Of a stretch of 64,000 bases of DNA, positions 50,643 through 59,601 are shown one piece after another (within the stretch, counting starts at the first letter, position 1; every line of letters starts with the position of its first letter). Origin of the DNA: Myxococcus fulvus (lineage in GTDB: Bacteria; Myxococcota; Myxococcia; Myxococcales; Myxococcaceae); assembly GCF_900111765.1 (NCBI RefSeq), contig NZ_FOIB01000002.1, forward strand, positions 992,001 through 1,056,000, read 5' to 3'. Position numbers and translations under genes: made by a program. Under the pieces are notes generated by a model. The model saw only the letters and a list, made by a program, of their open reading frames with translations. It made no database searches and had not been told where the DNA came from.

Positions 50643-52346
50643 TCAGGCCCCCGAAGCCGAAGCGGCCTCCGGCCCGCGCGGCAGCACCGACTGCGCCACC
50701 AGACTCAGCGCCACGACAAGCGCGCAGCCGATGACGTTGTACCAGAGGTAGCCGATGTCACTGAGCATGAAGAGCCCAATCACCGTCGCCTGCGAGATGA
50801 CCGCCGCGGTGAAGACCGCATGCCCGCGCACGAACTTGAGGAAGAACGCGACCAGGAAGATGCCCAGCACCGTCCCGTAGAAAATCGAGCCCAGGATGTT
50901 CACCGCCTGGATGAGGTTGTCGAGCAGGGACGCGAACGTCGCGAACCCCACCGCCACCAAGCCCCAGAACACCGTGAACAGCTTCGACGCGATGAGCACG
51001 TGCCGGTCCGACGCCTCCGGACGGAACACCCGCCGGTAGAAGTCCACCGTCGTCGTCGCCCCCAGCGCATTGAGCTCACTCGCGATGGAGCTCATCGCCG
51101 CGGACAAGATGACCGCGATGAGCAGGCCGAACAGTCCACTGGGCAGCCACCGCTTCACGAAGCCGATGAAGATGTAGTCCGAGTCCTTCGTCTCCGCCCC
51201 AGGCAGCGCCCGCGTCACCAGCGCCTTGGCGTCCTTGCGGACCTGGCTCGCCTCCCCCGCCGCCGCACGCAGCGCCTCACGCACGCCCGTGCGCGAAGCC
51301 TCGTCCCCCGCCGACAGGTACCGCTCCACCTCCGCGCGCTTGCTCGACTGCACCTCTTCCCACTTCGTCTCCAGCGCCGCGTACTCCGCCGCCTGCCCGG
51401 AGCCGCGCATCCGCTCGCCCAGCGTCTCGTTGAACAGCAGGGGCGGCGTGCTGAACTGGTAGAAGACGAAGACGAGGATTCCGACGAAGAGAATCAGGAA
51501 CTGCATCGGAATCTTCAGCACGCCGTTGAATAACAACCCCAGCCGGCTCTCGGTGATGGAGCGCCCCGTGAGATAACGCCCCACCTGCGACTGGTCCGTG
51601 CCGAAGTACGACAGCGCCAGGAAGAAGCCGCCCGTGAGCCCGGACCAGAAGTTGTAACGGTCCTGCACGTTGAAGTCGAAGCTCACCACGTTCATCCGAC
51701 CGAACGCGCCCGCCACGTCCACCGCGTCACCGAACGACACGTGCGAGGGCAGCCGCCAGAGGATGACCAGCGCGGCCACCACCATGCCGCCCATCATCAC
51801 CACCATCTGCTGCTTCTGCGTCTGGCTGACCGCGTTCGAGCCGCCCGTCACCGTGTAGAGGATGACCAACGCCCCCATCGCCACCACCGTGGGCTCCAAC
51901 GCCCAGCCCAGAATCGTGGAGAGGATGATGGACGGCGCGTAGATGGTGATGCCCGCCGCCAGCCCGCGCTGCACCAGGAACAGGAAGGCGCCGAACAGGC
52001 GCGTCTTCAAGTCGAAGCGCGACTCCAGGTACTGGTACGCCGTGATGACGTTCAGCCGGTAGTAGATGGGGACGAAGACCGCGCTGATGAGAATCATCGC
52101 GAACGGCAGTCCGAAGTAGAACTGCACGAAGCGCATCCCGTCTTCGTAGGCCTGTCCCGGAACGGAGAGGAAGGTGATGGCGCTGGCCTGCGTGGCCATC
52201 ACCGCCAGACCGATGGTCGGCCACTTCAGCTCGCGAGCGCCCCGGAGGTACTCCTCCGTGTTCTTCGCGCCCCGCGACTTCCACATCCCCCACGCGACGA
52301 TGAACACAATCGTCCCGACGAGCACACCCCAGTCGAGCAACGTCAC
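50643..52346 (-). CDS. Sodium:solute symporter (SSS family)
   Basis: A GTG at 52346 that overlaps the stop of the 56-residue gene (GTGA) gives 567 residues. About 13 membrane helices carry SSS signatures: GLAVMATQASAITFLSVPGQ near the N-terminus and GGFFLALSYFGTDQSQVGRY in the middle. A soluble insertion of about 70 residues (LETKWEEVQSSKRAEVERYL and following) interrupts the helices before KDSDYIFIGFVKRWLPSGL. These proteins take up sugars, amino acids or acids with sodium. It is the last gene of a PIG-L, small membrane protein, symporter operon, so its substrate may be a sugar or amino-sugar product of the deacetylase. Confidence 0.92.
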   Translation of the reverse strand: MTLLDWGVLVGTIVFIVAWGMWKSRGAKNTEEYLRGARELKWPTIGLAVMATQASAITFLSVPGQAYEDGMRFVQFYFGLPFAMILISAVFVPIYYRLNVITAYQYLESRFDLKTRLFGAFLFLVQRGLAAGITIYAPSIILSTILGWALEPTVVAMGALVILYTVTGGSNAVSQTQKQQMVVMMGGMVVAALVILWRLPSHVSFGDAVDVAGAFGRMNVVSFDFNVQDRYNFWSGLTGGFFLALSYFGTDQSQVGRYLTGRSITESRLGLLFNGVLKIPMQFLILFVGILVFVFYQFSTPPLLFNETLGERMRGSGQAAEYAALETKWEEVQSSKRAEVERYLSAGDEASRTGVREALRAAAGEASQVRKDAKALVTRALPGAETKDSDYIFIGFVKRWLPSGLFGLLIAVILSAAMSSIASELNALGATTTVDFYRRVFRPEASDRHVLIASKLFTVFWGLVAVGFATFASLLDNLIQAVNILGSIFYGTVLGIFLVAFFLKFVRGHAVFTAAVISQATVIGLFMLSDIGYLWYNVIGCALVVALSLVAQSVLPRGPEAASASGA

Positions 52347-52513
52347 GAGTACACCCAGGTGAGCGCCGCCGACAGGACGACGAAGAGGACGAAGACGCCG
52401 ACCACCAGCAGGTAGATGTTGCGCCACGAGCCGAGCAGCGGCGGCGCGTCATCCAGCTCCGGCCGCTTCTCGACGGGCGCGGGAGACGAGGAGGGATTCA
52501 CGGGAGGGCTCAT
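52343..52513 (-). CDS. 56-residue single-pass membrane protein between PIG-L and symporter
   Basis: The ATG at 52513 overlaps the PIG-L stop by 3 bases within ATGA, and its stop overlaps the symporter GTG. The 56 residues have a Pro/Ser-rich cytoplasmic start ([20 protein letters not shown]) and one strong helix, NIYLLVVGVFVLFVVLSAAL, ending TWVYS. Position and coupling match the small accessory subunits known beside some SSS symporters (for example DUF485/YhjB-like partners), although it lacks their sequence. It is probably a small symporter partner. Confidence 0.75.
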   Translation of the reverse strand: MSPPVNPSSSPAPVEKRPELDDAPPLLGSWRNIYLLVVGVFVLFVVLSAALTWVYS

Positions 52514-54996
52514 TGCGCGAGGACGTTCGCCAGGAGGCGGTAGGCGCCGGGGACCCCGGCGGGAAGCTGACGGAAGAAGGCCAGGCCCGTGTAGACGAAC
52601 ACGCCCTTGCCGTGACGCGCGACGAGCAACGAGCCCTTCAGCGGCTCCTCGCCCGCGTCGTTCATCGCGAACACCGGGCGGTACTTGTCGTCCCACTTCG
52701 ACGCGAAGTACAGCCCGCGCTCCTGCACCCAGCCGTCGAAGTCCGCGGACGTCAGCCGGTTGGGTGCGCGCAACAGCGGCTCGGCCGCCGACACCGGCGT
52801 CATCACCGCCGTCTCGTCCGTCACGCGCTCGCGGCCAATCTCCAGCGGGTACGGCCCCACGAAGGCCGCCAGCGGCCCCACGCGGCTGTTGGTGTTGTAC
52901 TGCACCACCAGGCGCCCACCCTGCTTCACGTAGTCGAGCAGTCGCTCCCGGTGCACCGCGAGCCGCGGGTTCGCGTTGAAGGCCCGCACGCCGACGAGGA
53001 TGGCGTCGAAGCGCTCCAGCTTCTCCGAGTCCAGCCGCTCCTCGGGCAGCACCGTCACCTCGTAGCCCACCGCCGCCAGGCTCTCCGCCACCTTGTCACC
53101 CGGGCCGGGGATGTAGCCCAGCCGCTTCACCTTCGTCGCCAGCGCGAAGGGAACCAGCGTGGCCTCCGAGTCCTGCCGCACCGCCAGGGGAGGCAGGTGC
53201 TCGTAGGACACGGTCCTCACCCGCCATGACTCGGCGCGCCCGCCCACGTCGACAACGACGCGCAGGCGCCCCTTCTCCGTCGCGCCCTTGGGCGGCGTCA
53301 CCTTGAAGTGCACGGTGCGCGCATCACCGCGCGTGGCGAACTGGAACGCATGCTCCGCGGGCTCCGAGCGCCATCCCTGCGGCAGCTCCAGCCGCGCCTT
53401 GCCGCTCACGTCCCCGCGCCCCGCGCTCAGGACCACCGCCACCGACCGCGCCGCGCCGTTGGGGAACATCACCCTGTCGCGCTCCAGCGTCGCCGTGACG
53501 GCGGGGACGACCTCGAACGCGCGGTACAGCTCCCCGCGCACCGGGTCCGTCCACACGTGCACCACCGGCCGCGTCACCGTGATGCGCCGACCCGCGGCCT
53601 CGTACACGAACGACACCGACATCGCCGGCCCCGCCTCGGGCAGCCCCGTCAGCGCGCGGTCCGCGTCGTCCAGCGCGAACATTCCTCCGGAGACAGGCTT
53701 GCGCAGCCAGTACGGCGTGGTGACAGCCGCGTCCTCGGGCAGGGCGACCTTCTTCTCCAGCTTCAGCGGCGCGTGCTCCGCGAGCACCGAGTCCACCGCC
53801 ACGCGCTCTCCACCCGGCAGCGTCACGCTCACCAGCTTGAGCGCCGCGGGCGAGCGGTTCAGCGCGTGCAGCGTCACCGCCACCGACGCGCCCGGCGTGC
53901 CCGTGGCCTCCGCGGCCCGCGCCTCCAGGAACAGCCCCGCGCACGCGGCCACCAGCGCCTCCGTCTCGCGCAGCTTCACGGCCTTCCACGGGTGCTCGTC
54001 CGGCAGCGCGGACAGCGCCTCGTGCACCTTCAGCAGCGCGGGCACCGAGCGATACGGCGCGCGCGCATCGAAGCCCTTCCGCGCCTCCTCCACCGCGAGG
54101 GCCACGTTCTCCGTGCCCTTCCAGCGGCGCCAGGACAGCTCCAGCCCCTCGAAGACGTCGGCCCTGGGGCGCGCGCCGTCCAGCGGCTGGAAGTACTCCA
54201 GCAGCGGACCGCGCTCGGCGGGGACCCCGAAGCCCTGGCTCTTGTGCTGACTGCGGCTCTCCGCGGAGATTTCTCCCCATGAGCGCCCGAGCAGCGCGTC
54301 GTACCCGCCCACGTCCACCTTGAGGTAGGCGGACATGTCCGCGTCCGGCTTCAGGCTCCAGGTGGAAACGTTGTGCAGCAGCCGGTCCGCCTTCCAAGGC
54401 TTCACCAGCGACAGCTGCTCCGGGAAGCGCGCGGGGTCCGCGGCGGCCTTGAAGGCCTCGGCGGCGAGCAGCGCGGACGCGGTGTGGTGTCCGTGGTTGG
54501 GCGGCTTCGTGTTGAAGCGCGTGACGATGACGTCCGGCTGGAAGCGGCGGATGGCGAGCACCACGTCCGCCAGCACCGCGTCGTGTCCCCAGATGCGCAG
54601 CGCCTCGTCGGCGGACTTCGTGTAGCCGAAGTCCCGCGCGCGGGTGAAGTACTGCTCGGCGCCGTCCACGCGGCGCGCGGCGAGCAGCTCATAGGTGCGG
54701 ATGAGCCCGAGCAGCTCGTCCTGCTCGGTGCCGATGAGGTTCTGTCCGCCATCGCCGCGCGTGAGCGAGAGGTAGCCCGCGCGCAGGCCGCGCTCTCCGA
54801 CGAGCCAGGCGAGGAAGCGCGTGTTCTCGTCGTCCGGGTGGGCCGCGACGTAGAGCACGCTGCCCGTCACGCCGAGGCGTCGCAGGCCCGCCGCGATTTC
54901 TCCCGCGTGCGGTTGTCGAGGTGTCTGCGCGAAAGCCGTGGTCCCGATTCCAAGGCTCATGGCCAGCGTCATGCCAAAGGTGAGCAGGGTTCGCAT
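52510..54996 (-). CDS. Secreted PIG-L/LmbE-type deacetylase with C-terminal domains
   Basis: 828 residues with a signal peptide ending near AFA (residue 23). The zinc site AHPDDE is at 52-57 and [16 protein letters not shown] gives the distal His, the arrangement of PIG-L/LmbE de-N-acetylases. The middle (about 330-600) is beta-sandwich-like. The C-terminal part (about 640-790: [20 protein letters not shown], then [19 protein letters not shown]) looks like a GATase/ThuA fold. It should deacetylate an N-acetyl sugar in the periplasm. It begins the operon that continues with the small membrane protein and the symporter, and it is divergent from bshC. Confidence 0.88.
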
Positions 54997-55141
54997 CCGC
55001 CGCGGACCCTACAACAAGGACCCGCCTCACGCGCCAGCGGCCTTCATCCACGATGACGCGACCAGCCACGCTGTCACGTCGGGTGTGCGCCACGGTCCTT
55101 CTGCGTGCCGGAGGAAAGGCGACCTGTTATCACCGCGCACC

Positions 55142-56767
55142 GTGACGCCCTCGTTTCCCACCGCGTGGCTCCAGGGAGACCCACGCGCGCTCGCCTTCCT
55201 GCCCGACCGCTTCCGCCACCGCGCCGCTCGCGCGGAGGCCGCGGCCGCTGCCTCCACCCGCTCCGTCCCGCCCGCGCTGCTCGAGGTGCTGCGGGCCCAG
55301 AACGCCCGGCTGGCGCCGAGCCCCGCCAGGGCTCGTCATCTGGAGGAGCTCGCCCAGCCCGGCACCACCGTGGTGGTGACGGGCCAACAGATGGGGCTGT
55401 TCCTCGGCCCCCTCTTCACGCTCTACAAGGCCGCCGCCGCCATCGTCGCCGCCCGAAAACTCCGGGAAGAAACCGGCCGCCCTTGTGTTCCCGTCTTCTG
55501 GCTCCAGACCGAGGACCACGACCTGCCGGAGGTCGACCACTGTTTCGTCGCGAGCCCGAGAGGCGCGCGATGTCGCGTGTCGCTCGACCTCCCCGACGCG
55601 GCCCTCTCACGCGCGCCCATCGCCCACCAGAAACTGGGCCCCGGGGTCATCAAGGCCCTGGAGTCGCTGCGCGCGGAGCTGGGCGCGGAGCCCCAGGCCG
55701 AGGAGCACCTCTCCCTGCTCGAGTGGGCCTACCGCCCCGAAGCGACGCTCGCGGAGGCCTTCACCGAAGTGCTCTCCACCCTCTTCGCCGAAGAGGGGCT
55801 GGTGTTCCTCGACCCGCGGGACGCGCGCCTCGCGCCGCTGGCCGCGCCCATCCACCGGCTCTCGCTGGAGCACGCGTCCAGCATCTCCGCCGCGCTCACC
55901 CAGCGCGTGGAGGAGCTGACCCGCGCGGGCTTCTCCGAGCAGGTCTACATCCGCCCCGGCGCGCCGCTGGGCTTCTTCTCCCCGGACGAGGTCGACGGCG
56001 CGCGCTACCGGCTGGACCCCACGGGCCCGGAAACGTGGAACCTCGTGGGCCACCCGCGCGGCGCCACCGTCACCACGGCACAGCTGCTGCGCGCGCTGGA
56101 GCACGAGCCCCTGCGCTTCACCACCTCCGCGCTCCTGCGCCCGCTGCTCCAGGACACGTGGCTGCCCACCGCCGCGTACGTCGGCGGCCCGGGCGAGGTC
56201 TCCTACTTCGCGCAGCTGGCGCCGCTCTACGCGCACGCGGGCCTGCCCATGCCGCTCGTGGTGCCGCGCGCGCGCTTCCGGGTGCTCGATGACCGCGCCC
56301 GCAGGCTGCTCCACAAGCTGGGCCTCACCGCGGACGAGGCGGGCCAGCCGCGTGAGGCGCTCCTGACGAAGCTGGCCACGCGCGACGCGGCCGAACCCTA
56401 CGAGCCCGCCGGCACCGTGGAGGCGCGGCTGTTCGGCGCGTTCTCCGCCGAACTGGACGCGCTGGGCGAGTCGATGCTGAAGCTGGACCCGCGGCTGTTG
56501 GACGCGCTCAAGCGCACGCGCGGCACCGTGCGCGCGGCGGTGTCACGCTTGTCGGCCCGCTACGGCCGGGCGCTCGCGCTGCGCGACGAGGTCACCACCG
56601 AGCGCGTGGACCGGCTGCGCGCCATGCTGCTTCCGGAGGGCGCGCCGCAGGAGCGCATCCACGGCATGGCCTACCACGCGTGTCGCTTCGGCACGCGGGC
56701 CTTCACCCGCCAGGTGCTCGACGCCTGCATCCCCTTCTCCGGCGACCTCCAGGACCTGATGCCATGA
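55142..56767 (+). CDS. bshC: Bacillithiol biosynthesis cysteine-adding enzyme BshC
   Basis: A GTG at 55142 gives 541 residues, the usual BshC length. Diagnostic motifs are [20 protein letters not shown] (about 78-97) and [14 protein letters not shown] near 120, both hallmarks of BshC, followed by the long coiled-coil and dimer region. BshC links cysteine to GlcN-malate in the last step of bacillithiol synthesis. The longer frame from 54938 overlaps the divergent gene and is not supported. The stop overlaps the bshB1 start (ATGA). The operon order here is C-B1-A. Confidence 0.92.
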
Positions 56768-57570
56768 GCGCGAGCGGCGCGACGTACGGGCTGGAGGCGC
56801 TGGCCTTCGGCCCCCACCCGGACGACGTGGAGCTGTTCTGCGGCGGGCTGATGGCGAAGCTGTCGAGCCAGGGCCACCGCACCGGCATCATCGACCTGTC
56901 CCGAGGCGAGAAGAGCTCACGCGGCACGCTCGAGTCGCGTGCCGAGGAGACTTTGGCCGCCTCGCGGGTGCTGGGCCTGTCCGTGCGCGAGAACCTGGAG
57001 CTGCCCGACGGCTGGCTCAACCCGTGGGCCGGGTTCGAGGCGCCGGAGGCCGAGCGCGTGCGCGCGTCCGCCGTCGCGCGCGTGGTGGAGGTGCTGCGCA
57101 GGCTGCGCCCGGAGCTGGTCATCGTCCCGTGGGAGGAGGAGCGCCACCCGGACCACGAGGCCGCGAGCGCCCTGGTGACGCGCGCGCTGTTCTTCTCCGG
57201 CGTGCGCAAGTTCGAGACCGAGCCTCCCGGCGCGGCCTTCACGCCGCGGCAGGTCCTCTACTATCCGCTGCGCCACCTGGCCGAGCCGAGCTTCGTGGTG
57301 GACGTGTCCTCCATCTACGAGACCAAGACGGCGGCCGTGCGCTGCTACGCGAGTCAGGTGGAACCCCGCCTGGGCGCCCCCGCCACGCTGGTGGGCTCCC
57401 CGCTGTCGCTCTCCTCCCTGGAGGCGAGGGACCGCTTCTACGGCGCCCAGGTCGGCGTGGCCCATGGCGAGCCGTACGTCGTGCGGGAGACGCTGGGGCT
57501 CATCGACCCGGTGGAGCACTTCCGCCGGAATAGCTTCGAGAAGCCCCTGTTCTTCCCTCACCGCCGATGA
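56764..57570 (+). CDS. bshB1: GlcNAc-malate deacetylase BshB1
   Basis: The ATG at 56764 overlaps the bshC stop by 4 bases and gives 268 residues. The PIG-L zinc motif GPHPDDVE lies at 16-23, and [20 protein letters not shown] carries the later His. [18 protein letters not shown] is the conserved BshB1 stretch that follows. The enzyme removes the acetyl group from N-acetylglucosaminyl-malate. The adjacent bshC and bshA genes make the assignment to bacillithiol, and not to another PIG-L pathway, secure. The stop overlaps the bshA start. Confidence 0.93.
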
Positions 57571-58730
57571 GCCCTCCCCTCCGCATCGCCATCACCTGCT
57601 TCTCGACATTCGGTGGCAGCGGCATGGTCGCCACCGGCATCGGCCTGGCCATGGCCGAGCGGGGCCACCAGGTCCACTTCATCGCGCGCGAGCCGCCGGT
57701 GCGTCTGGACCGTCTGCCCAAGGGCGTGTCGTTCCACGAGGTGAAGGAGAGCGACTACCCCGCGCTCCAGCGCTCTGGCACGTACCCGATTGCGCTGGCG
57801 TCCAAGATGATCGAGGTCGCCACCCAGGAGCACCTGGACGTGCTGCACGTGCACTACGCGGTGCCCCACGCCACGGCGGCGTGGATGGCGCGCGAGGTGC
57901 TGGGTGACCAGGGGCCGCGCGTCGTCACCACGCTGCACGGCACGGACACGACGCTCGTCGGCGTGCACCCCAGCTACCTGCCGATGACGCGCTTCTCCAT
58001 CCTGAAGAGCGACGCAGTGACGACGCCGTCCGCCTTCCTGCGCGACGCGACGTGGAGCGGCTTCGGCATCCCCGACAGCTTCCCCATCGAGGTCATCGCC
58101 AACTTCGTGGACACGGAGGCATACGCCCCCGCGCGCGAGCGCTCACAGCTGAAGGCCTTCTTCCCGGACCTGGGCGACGACGAGCCCGTCCTGGTGCACG
58201 TCTCCAACTTCCGCCCCGTCAAGCGCATCACCGACGTGGTGGCCGTCTTCGCGGAGGTGCACCGCCAGCTGCCGTGCCGGCTGGTGATGGTGGGCGACGG
58301 GCCGGAGCGCGAGCCCGCGGAGCGGATGCTGCGCGAGCTGGGGCTCTCCCACCGCGTGGCCTTCCCCGGCAAGCAGGAGCGCTTCGTGCGGGTGCTCGCC
58401 GCGTCCGACGTGTTCCTGCTGCCCAGTGAGCAGGAGAGCTTCGGGCTCGCGGCGCTGGAGGCGCTCAGCTGCGGCGTGCCCGTGGTGGCCAGCGACGTGG
58501 GGGGCATCCCGGAGGTGGTGCGCCACGGCGAGACGGGCCTCCTGGCGCCGCTGGGTGACGTGCGCGCCATGGCGGGCCACGTGCTGGGCCTCCTGCGGGA
58601 CCCGGCGAGGTGGCGGGCCTTCTCCCTCCGAGCGCGAGCCGACGTCGTCGAGCGCTTCAGGCAGGCGCCGGCCATCGACCGGTACGAGTCGCTCTACCGG
58701 CGACTCGCGGGCGGAGCCCCCCGACGCTGA
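57567..58730 (+). CDS. bshA: Bacillithiol glycosyltransferase BshA
   Basis: 387 residues of GT4 type, with a 4-base overlap with bshB1. CFSTFGGSGMVATGIGLAMA near the N-terminus and VHYAVPHATAAWMARE match BshA, which has this extra HYAVPHA. TTLHGTDTTLVGVHPSY follows. The C-terminal half holds the nucleotide-sugar motif EQESFGLAALEALSCGVPVV with the E-x7-E pair. BshA joins GlcNAc from UDP-GlcNAc to L-malate, the first step of the pathway. With bshC and bshB1 upstream, all three biosynthetic steps are present. Confidence 0.93.
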   Translation: MSPPLRIAITCFSTFGGSGMVATGIGLAMAERGHQVHFIAREPPVRLDRLPKGVSFHEVKESDYPALQRSGTYPIALASKMIEVATQEHLDVLHVHYAVPHATAAWMAREVLGDQGPRVVTTLHGTDTTLVGVHPSYLPMTRFSILKSDAVTTPSAFLRDATWSGFGIPDSFPIEVIANFVDTEAYAPARERSQLKAFFPDLGDDEPVLVHVSNFRPVKRITDVVAVFAEVHRQLPCRLVMVGDGPEREPAERMLRELGLSHRVAFPGKQERFVRVLAASDVFLLPSEQESFGLAALEALSCGVPVVASDVGGIPEVVRHGETGLLAPLGDVRAMAGHVLGLLRDPARWRAFSLRARADVVERFRQAPAIDRYESLYRRLAGGAPRR

Positions 58731-58755: not shown

Positions 58756-59601
58756 CTACTTGTTCTTCCAGTCCGCCAGGGCCTTGGAGACCTGGTCCTT
58801 GTAGAAGAAGTTCGGGGCCTTCTGGCCCAGGTCCCACGAAATCTGCGCGGCCTTGCGGGCCTCCGCGTACTTGCCGCTCTTGGCGAGGATGTCCGCGCGA
58901 ATCCACTGGTTGTACCAGTTGGAGTCGATGGCCACGGACGCGTCCGCCAGCTTCAGCGCCGCCGCGTAGTCCTTGGTGGACTCCGCCACGTAGCGGGCCG
59001 CCTGGGCGTGCTCACTGGCGCTCTGCGACACCGCCTTCTCGATGTTCGCCTTGGCCAGCGTCGCGGTGTCCGCCTTGATGGGGACGGAGACCCGCAGCTT
59101 CTCCCACTCCAGGTCCAGCGACGTGGTGTCGTCCGTGGTGTTGCTGAACACGTACGTCAGGCGCTCGCGGCTGGGAATCGCCGCCGTGGTGCCGGCGACG
59201 GTGACGATGTCGTTGGCGGGCGAGTACTGGGCGGGCGTGGAGAACAGGCCCAGCTCCTTGTTCAGCATCACCTTCCAGCCCTTCTGCGAGGGCAGCGTGA
59301 CGATGGAGTAGGTGCCCGCCGGCACGGCCTTGCCGCCGAAGGTGACGTCGTGGCTGAAGGTAATCTTGGTGGCCGCGTTCGCGCCCGAGCGCCACGGCTT
59401 GTCCCAGGGCACCAGGTCACCCCAGACCTTGCGGCCCTTCACCGCCGGGCTGGAATAGTCGACGGAGATGGACGTGACGCCCACCTCCTGCGTCACCTTG
59501 GAGGAGGGGCTGGCGGCGGGCAGCTCGAGCTGAGCGGAGGCGGGGGCCGCGACGAGGGCCACCAGCGCCGAGAACAGACAACCGAGGGCAACGTTCTTCA
59601 T
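58756..59601 (-). CDS. DUF2911 secreted protein
   Basis: The ATG at 59601 gives 281 residues with a signal peptide ending ASA near residue 23. The DUF2911 core covers about 30-180, with VTSISVDYSSPAVKGRKVWG, LVPWDKPWRSGANAATKITF and GTYSIVTLPSQKGWKVMLN. The last 90 residues are helical and TPR-like (YAAALKLADASVAIDSNWYN, then AKSGKYAEARKAAQISWDLG). DUF2911 function is unknown; members are exported. A longer frame from 59694 lacks a signal peptide, so the later start is preferred. Convergent with bshA and divergent from the AAA ATPase. Confidence 0.88.
   Translation of the reverse strand: MKNVALGCLFSALVALVAAPASAQLELPAASPSSKVTQEVGVTSISVDYSSPAVKGRKVWGDLVPWDKPWRSGANAATKITFSHDVTFGGKAVPAGTYSIVTLPSQKGWKVMLNKELGLFSTPAQYSPANDIVTVAGTTAAIPSRERLTYVFSNTTDDTTSLDLEWEKLRVSVPIKADTATLAKANIEKAVSQSASEHAQAARYVAESTKDYAAALKLADASVAIDSNWYNQWIRADILAKSGKYAEARKAAQISWDLGQKAPNFFYKDQVSKALADWKNK

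Follow-up and report, generated by a model that had tools for sequence, protein, structure and literature searches.

What is the purpose of a predicted secreted hydrolase, a microprotein and a sodium symporter that are encoded head to head with the genes for synthesis of the protective thiol bacillithiol? This arrangement occurs in the genome of the soil bacterium Myxococcus fulvus (10.8 Mb, 42 contigs), in a stretch of 64,000 nucleotides (contig NZ_FOIB01000002.1, positions 992,001 to 1,056,000) that is called the window here. On its minus strand lie the gene of a three-domain PIG-L protein (52510-54996), the small open reading frame (ORF) of the microprotein (52343-52513) and the gene of a sodium:solute symporter of the SSS family (50643-52346). 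The original prediction that these three genes are coupled by overlaps of four bases is borne out by ATGA at 52510-52513, shared by the PIG-L stop and the small-ORF start, and by GTGA at 52343-52346, shared by the small-ORF stop and the GTG start of the symporter gene. A divergent intergenic region of 145 bp, read from the sequence and assigned to no strand (54997-55141), separates the PIG-L start from the start of bshC, the first gene of the bshC-bshB1-bshA operon. Judging from sequence comparisons, we lean towards the answer that these genes serve to salvage bacillithiol.

According to PMC4360819, bacillithiol consists of cysteine, glucosamine and malate (Cys-GlcN-malate). In the proposed mechanism, bacillithiol or a derivative would be encountered outside the cytoplasmic membrane by the secreted PIG-L metalloenzyme, which would cut the amide on the glucosamine. 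One product would be glucosaminyl-malate, the other the acyl group, which may be cysteine, a cysteine conjugate or acetate. Uptake of glucosaminyl-malate would fall to the symporter, aided by the single-helix microprotein, and BshC would re-ligate the imported compound to cysteine, thereby bypassing BshA and BshB. In relatives with a lyase resembling the argininosuccinate lyase ArgH, an elimination on the malyl group could convert glucosaminyl-malate to glucosamine and fumarate, and a kinase and NagB would take the glucosamine onward. A comparable scheme is periplasmic glutathione salvage, where the action of gamma-glutamyl transpeptidase is followed by uptake: here, too, an extracytoplasmic hydrolase is proposed to open a low-molecular-weight thiol so that a transporter can recover the pieces, although the thiol is a different one and the likeness is of scheme alone, with no homology claimed. 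It seems evenly balanced, on the genomic comparisons below, whether these steps amount to a bacillithiol degradation and salvage pathway across at least five phyla, in which the three-domain PIG-L would be a bacillithiol amidase, the ArgH-like family would be a glucosaminyl-malate lyase, and importers (symporter plus single-helix subunit in producers, ABC importers in Alphaproteobacteria, which use glutathione) would recycle an organism's own bacillithiol or that of its neighbours.

The PIG-L protein has 828 aa, a signal-like hydrophobic N-terminus, a Pfam PIG-L match of 55 bits and a NEW3 stretch, and is organized into a PIG-L catalytic domain (residues ~43-288), a beta-sandwich (~355-620) and a GATase1/ThuA-like domain (622-828). 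An AlphaFold2 model built from a 34-sequence alignment reached a mean pLDDT of 88.3. In a fold search with this model, the best solved fold for residues 43-288 was MshB (Z 21.1, rmsd 3.0, 225 residues), and the domain also resembles chitobiose deacetylases (Z 19.5) and BshB (Z 18.4 for both 6p2t and 6ull, with rmsd 2.7 over 195 residues for 6p2t); a sequence search of solved structures with the protein gave no match at E <= 0.01. The HPDD motif, the distal metal-binding histidine and the alpha/beta fold place it in the LmbE-like/PIG-L superfamily. Its metal-site residues (H53, D55, D56, H168 and H171) are invariant in 34/34 aligned proteins, as is a TRGxGGQN stretch. Because of the MshB/BshB-like fold and the invariant metal site, the protein very probably works as a metal-dependent amide hydrolase, and its signal-like N-terminus suggests that it is secreted. 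Residues 622-828 match the GATase1/ThuA-like protein STM3548 (2gk3; Z 16.5, rmsd 2.8, 187 residues). The nucleophilic cysteine of GATase1 was not found in this domain, as the sole cysteine of the window protein is residue 352 and no position in columns 622-828 has a cysteine in more than 6/34 relatives. Among the relatives fetched, the closest named one is a Myxococcus protein with 89% identity. Some Bacteroidota (e.g. genomes G380, G231 and G274) encode a related protein that matches just both ends of the PIG-L protein, in open frames of ~550-880 aa.

The same PIG-L fold and metal site are found in BshB1/BshB2 and Bca, which belong to the LmbE-like superfamily as well. The window protein differs from these in its signal-like N-terminus, in its two extra domains and in its score of 25.3 bits (E 1.1e-5) against the BshB1 model TIGR04001, the cut-off of which is 182.5. 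The difference extends to phylogeny: in a PIG-L-domain tree of 36 proteins, for which the tool warned of long branches meeting, the long PIG-Ls of the window type and those of Acidobacteriota, Alphaproteobacteria and Deinococcus form one clade (100/98) that is separate from BshB1 and other PIG-Ls. The mycothiol enzymes Mca and MshB are cytoplasmic, single-domain proteins. MshB is the nearest solved fold and the proposed chemistry would likewise be amide hydrolysis beside glucosamine; the Mca model TIGR03446 gives the window protein 34.8 bits (E 1.3e-8) against a cut-off of 277.15.

The fact that Mca ranks over BshB1 among the NCBIfam models, both far below cut-off, can be read in favour of detoxification. 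The secreted PIG-L would then be an extracytoplasmic counterpart of Bca or Mca, a bacillithiol S-conjugate amidase acting on exported conjugates, with the recovery of glucosaminyl-malate being secondary. Bca does cleave bacillithiol conjugates, the products of which are then exported, but in this account, as given in PMC4360819, cleavage precedes export. Clusters of relatives with NagB, kinases and the lyase, described below, also look nutritional, and we regard detoxification as unlikely.

The salvage reading draws its substrate from the genomic neighbourhood. The divergent bsh operon, in which BshB1 had been recognized as another PIG-L enzyme, is verified by matches that all exceed the NCBIfam cut-offs. 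Its genes, all on the plus strand, are bshC for the cysteine-adding enzyme (55142-56767, GTG start; TIGR03998 461 bits, cut-off 266), bshB1 for the GlcNAc-malate deacetylase (56764-57570; TIGR04001 280 bits, cut-off 182.5) and bshA for the N-acetylglucosaminyl-malate synthase (57567-58730; TIGR03999 501 bits, cut-off 274). Among 195 genomes of Myxococcota, a PIG-L relative was found in 67 and BshC in 65, and all 65 BshC genomes have both. PIG-L occurs without BshC in G112 and G142, the match in G142 covering just 139 residues, and three genera (g4, g6 and g7) contain species with both proteins and species with neither. The original prediction, which staked itself on the two operons being neighbours in other genomes, is supported: PIG-L and bshC are at most 2.1 kb apart in 64/65 Myxococcota (they lie on different contigs in G017), on opposite strands in 55 of these 64 and on the same strand in the other nine.

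In Acidobacteriota (199 genomes), 102 have a PIG-L relative at E <= 1e-20, and 99 of these have a BshC match as compared to 32 of the 97 others (p 4e-24, a value which assumes independent genomes, which they are not). After removal of 18 weak partial BshC matches, the counts are 90/102 with PIG-L versus 23/97 without. Very weak partial matches (E ~1e-11, open frames of ~390-580 aa), present in Acidobacteriota such as G602, G611, G629 and G662, are perhaps a different ligase. Both genes lie within 9 kb of each other in 12 of the 89 acidobacterial genomes compared by position. Gene order was read in 20 regions, mostly chosen because the genes are linked, and takes several forms, with one-strand runs in some Myxococcota and Acidobacteriota: loci L097 and L098 have DUF2911, BshC, BshB1, BshA, PIG-L and the symporter all on one strand, L106 has DUF2911-BshC-BshB1-BshA-PIG-L on one strand up to a contig end, and L104, L108, L109 and L110 have a one-strand DUF2911-bsh-PIG-L run without BshB1. 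In Bacteroidota (296 genomes), BshC is present in 291 and a PIG-L-like protein in 119, and G438 alone of the five genomes without a BshC match has a PIG-L-like match. The recurring set in this phylum is PIG-L, microprotein and symporter, often with DUF2911.

The distribution in Bacteroidota, where the unit is mostly distant from bsh genes, could also mean that the unit deacetylates another N-acetyl sugar, for example as a periplasmic chitin or GlcNAc deacetylase, and that the bsh neighbourhood is an inherited gene order. Many PIG-Ls are sugar deacetylases, and the fold resemblance to chitobiose deacetylases points the same way. Against this, the linkage recurs in differing orders and strands in two phyla and the lyase shows a separate linkage to bshC, which makes such unrelated scavenging of amino sugars quite unlikely.

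In a biosynthetic role, the PIG-L protein would serve some lineages as BshB, deacetylating GlcNAc-malate outside the membrane, and the symporter would bring glucosaminyl-malate back in. In four Myxococcota with BshC (G147, G028, G162 and G015; completeness 92-98%), out of 22 chosen genomes, the three-domain protein is indeed the sole PIG-L, canonical BshB1 not being found in these four, and several operons of the regions read for gene order are bshC-bshA-PIG-L without bshB1. The window genome, however, also has a canonical BshB1, and the signal-like N-terminus is kept even where the protein is the sole PIG-L, so that the intermediate would need to be exported and re-imported; this role is very unlikely. 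The persistence of signal-like N-termini also led to the rejection of the idea that the PIG-L turned cytoplasmic where BshB1 is missing.

Further support for salvage of bacillithiol comes from clusters of relatives that contain an ArgH-like lyase. Relatives of ~30% identity that span the whole PIG-L protein occur in 21 alphaproteobacterial plasmid records, with nine further plasmid records matching it in part, and a lyase is encoded 4.4-4.8 kb from PIG-L in 21/21 of the full-span records. Nine annotated loci were read (L144-L150, L184 and L185), all of which contain ugpC, 'argH', two sugar permeases, a binding protein, a ROK gene and PIG-L, the order of the cluster being sugar kinase-ugpC-'argH'-permeases-binding protein-ROK-PIG-L. 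Seven of the nine list a sugar kinase, of the PfkB type or another, and one has a ROK-family protein instead; PIG-L is followed by a DMT/EamA transporter in five loci and by NagB in one, and in one a cysteine dioxygenase is encoded one gene further out. NagB, sugar kinases, cysteine dioxygenase and DMT/EamA transporters fit the products of salvage, and the cluster probably serves catabolism, its argininosuccinate lyase being probably mis-named. By a crude measure of N-terminal hydrophobicity, on which alphaproteobacterial L145 nearly matches the window protein, a signal-like N-terminus is absent from the alphaproteobacterial PIG-Ls, which are paired with an ABC importer, and present in the window type, the partner of which is a symporter. 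These locations fit the proposed scheme: the window type would cut and then import, and the alphaproteobacterial type would import and then cut.

Similar sets are found elsewhere. Two Deinococcus plasmids (L188 and L193), the two that were read of three records with a lyase match, encode ROK, the lyase, a PIG-L of 700-740 aa, an importer and a kinase, together with another, small PIG-L. In Shinella, Roseomonas and Paroceanicella the lyase and an importer occur with no PIG-L listed, accompanied by ROK and SIS in Roseomonas and by ROK and NagB in Paroceanicella. In the acidobacterial locus L094 the lyase comes after PIG-L; genes for an outer-membrane barrel and a ROK regulator lie upstream. Loci L199, L200 and L201 contain parts of this set, and L194 and L195 contain ROK-lyase-BshC. 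At E <= 1e-75, the lyase was detected in 27/199 Acidobacteriota genomes, all 27 of which have BshC (none a weak match) and 25 of which have PIG-L, G510 and G524 being without a PIG-L match. It is located within 12 kb of PIG-L in 15/27, of BshC in 10 and of either in 19. It lies only 91-286 bp from BshC in G647, G630, G671 and G510, and it adjoins PIG-L (23-210 bp) in eight genomes, each with a second, weaker ArgH match elsewhere.

The linked lyases share with ArgH the Lyase_1 and ASL_C2 domains, and an SSxMPxKxN stretch is present in 7/7 alphaproteobacterial copies. They differ in phylogeny: in a tree of 35 proteins, eight PIG-L-linked and two unlinked acidobacterial lyases form one clade (100/99) with seven alphaproteobacterial ones, and the 18 housekeeping ArgH, three of them on long branches, fall outside it. 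The lyases linked to PIG-L or bshC thus have a clade of their own outside the ArgH group. The lyase is annotated as an argininosuccinate lyase and passes the cut-off of that family, whose members are C-N lyases. This would suit another amino-sugar dicarboxylate as substrate, such as an aspartate-linked sugar, with fumarate being freed by C-N cleavage, but this highly improbable reading does not account for the fact that PIG-L and the lyase are both linked to bshC. With the query and threshold used for Acidobacteriota (E <= 1e-75), the lyase was found in 0/296 Bacteroidota genomes, and the window genome gave one partial ArgH-type match with 35% identity. We infer from this that these organisms would recycle glucosaminyl-malate through BshC and not degrade it. 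The genomic linkage and the independent clusters of lyase, importer and kinase (sometimes with NagB), the gene contents of which are compatible with glucosaminyl-malate, strengthen the earlier suggestion of a salvage system for substrates of the same class as those of the bsh operon.

Several observations weigh against salvage of bacillithiol. The arginine through which BshB binds malate has no conserved counterpart at position 167 of the PIG-L protein in the 34-sequence alignment. We know of no export of bacillithiol by such bacteria. Linked genes can be lost together and the genomes are not independent. Three Acidobacteriota (G515, G564 and G681) have PIG-L without a BshC match, although G681 has a BshA match directly before PIG-L, and nine more PIG-L genomes of this phylum have only weak partial BshC matches. 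Once weak matches are discarded, the acidobacterial core clade, a grouping of our own with 34 genomes, is not associated with BshC (22/34 vs 91/165, p 0.35), while the other acidobacterial PIG-L types keep the association (68/68). In Bacteroidota, BshC is near universal, so co-occurrence is uninformative and was dropped as evidence there. A bsh match was detected in the flanks (at most 10 kb, often shorter) of just 3/76 non-myxobacterial loci (L028, L041 and L047). With regard to the lyase, arginine-deiminase-pathway genes ~3 kb beyond PIG-L in Loktanella could point to arginine instead, an archaeal relative (Haladaptatus) is encoded without such a cluster, and two alphaproteobacterial lyases pass the ArgH cut-off of TIGR00838 (295 and 311 bits vs 279.5).

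If true, the proposal names an enzyme, a transporter and a lyase for the breakdown and recovery of bacillithiol. It would also find a place for a DUF, for a microprotein that lacks annotation and for an 'argininosuccinate lyase' that is probably mis-named, and it would predict a role of bacillithiol as a public nutrient. In the open-access PMC literature, which leaves subscription papers aside, no account of bacillithiol salvage, catabolism, breakdown or recovery was found. Bacillithiol genes are mapped in PMC6282198 and PMC12719100, the latter reporting the full pathway in 3842 species, and the word 'symporter' is absent from the main texts of both.

The transport step would depend on the symporter and the microprotein. 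The symporter (567 aa) is an SSS member by PF00474 (131.8 bits) and TIGR00813 (232.9 bits), both above cut-off, and among proteins of solved structure SMCT1, NIS and SMVT are nearest to it in sequence. These carry anions, a property weakly suggestive of, and compatible with, glucosaminyl-malate as cargo. The microprotein, encoded directly upstream, has 56 aa, a single helix and the motif PPxxxxWxxxYxLV. For the best 80 of at least 585 PIG-L relatives, loci were fetched with their flanks; these loci are not independent. A symporter was called downstream of PIG-L, on the same strand and within 1.5 kb, in 61/80 loci, the other 19 having no such call and some of them being at contig ends. Between the two genes, an ORF of 25-100 aa with the W...Y motif followed by one hydrophobic stretch occurs in 60/61 loci (not in L060), as compared to 3/1139 random control stretches of the same length from the same loci, drawn after the motif had been seen. 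When the motif is dropped, hydrophobic small ORFs are common by chance (214/1139), and the case for the microprotein therefore relies on the motif. With a laxer hydropathy limit, the microprotein was found in 14/15 further loci, L107 being without it.

In an alignment of 36 microproteins (the window and 35 loci picked for spread), W30 and Y34 are invariant, and a rough count over nine myxobacterial sequences, not all distinct, gave a nonsynonymous/synonymous ratio of 0.31. A scan of the 36 members at E up to 10 assigned no Pfam family: matches to 22 families were scattered over the members, no family reaching more than two of them (best E 0.0064), and none of the matches named a transporter subunit. 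An origin as a split-off symporter helix was rejected (profile comparison probability 0.6%). In L094, L099 and L100 the order is reversed, with the symporter before PIG-L; the microprotein still precedes the symporter and therefore goes with it. It may thus be a minimal accessory subunit of the symporter. SSS symporters with small membrane partners of the DUF485, DUF4212 and DUF997 types offer a parallel, a small membrane protein being encoded directly upstream of the symporter there as well, but the microprotein differs in having one helix, ~30-60 residues and no match to a curated Pfam family.

Other genes accompany these units in some lineages. Chitinophaga and relatives (L010, L013, L018, L020, L031, L045, L048 and L062) encode an extra glycine-rich hydrophobic protein of ~55 residues between PIG-L and the microprotein; the L048 copy, the sole one scanned, had no Pfam match. 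A gene family present in 13 loci (L019, L025, L051, L061 and nine more), mostly right after the symporter, is represented in L025 by a Gfo/Idh/MocA oxidoreductase. In other Acidobacteriota, an ion-channel protein (L099:4898-5728) and an amino-acid permease (L113:9786-11264) directly adjoin PIG-L.

The bsh operon is followed, on the minus strand, by the gene of a DUF2911 protein (58756-59601; PF11138 163 bits) with a signal-like N-terminus, a beta-rich domain and C-terminal helices (model pLDDT 89). In a fold search nothing in the PDB matched at E <= 0.001, the first hits being TPR proteins at ~0.003-0.02, and a sequence search of solved structures returned nothing at E <= 0.1. DUF2911 recurs in the bsh/PIG-L neighbourhood of Myxococcota, Acidobacteriota and Bacteroidota, and a family member is encoded in 38 of the best 80 loci, counted over all phyla; the protein may have a role in the same system.

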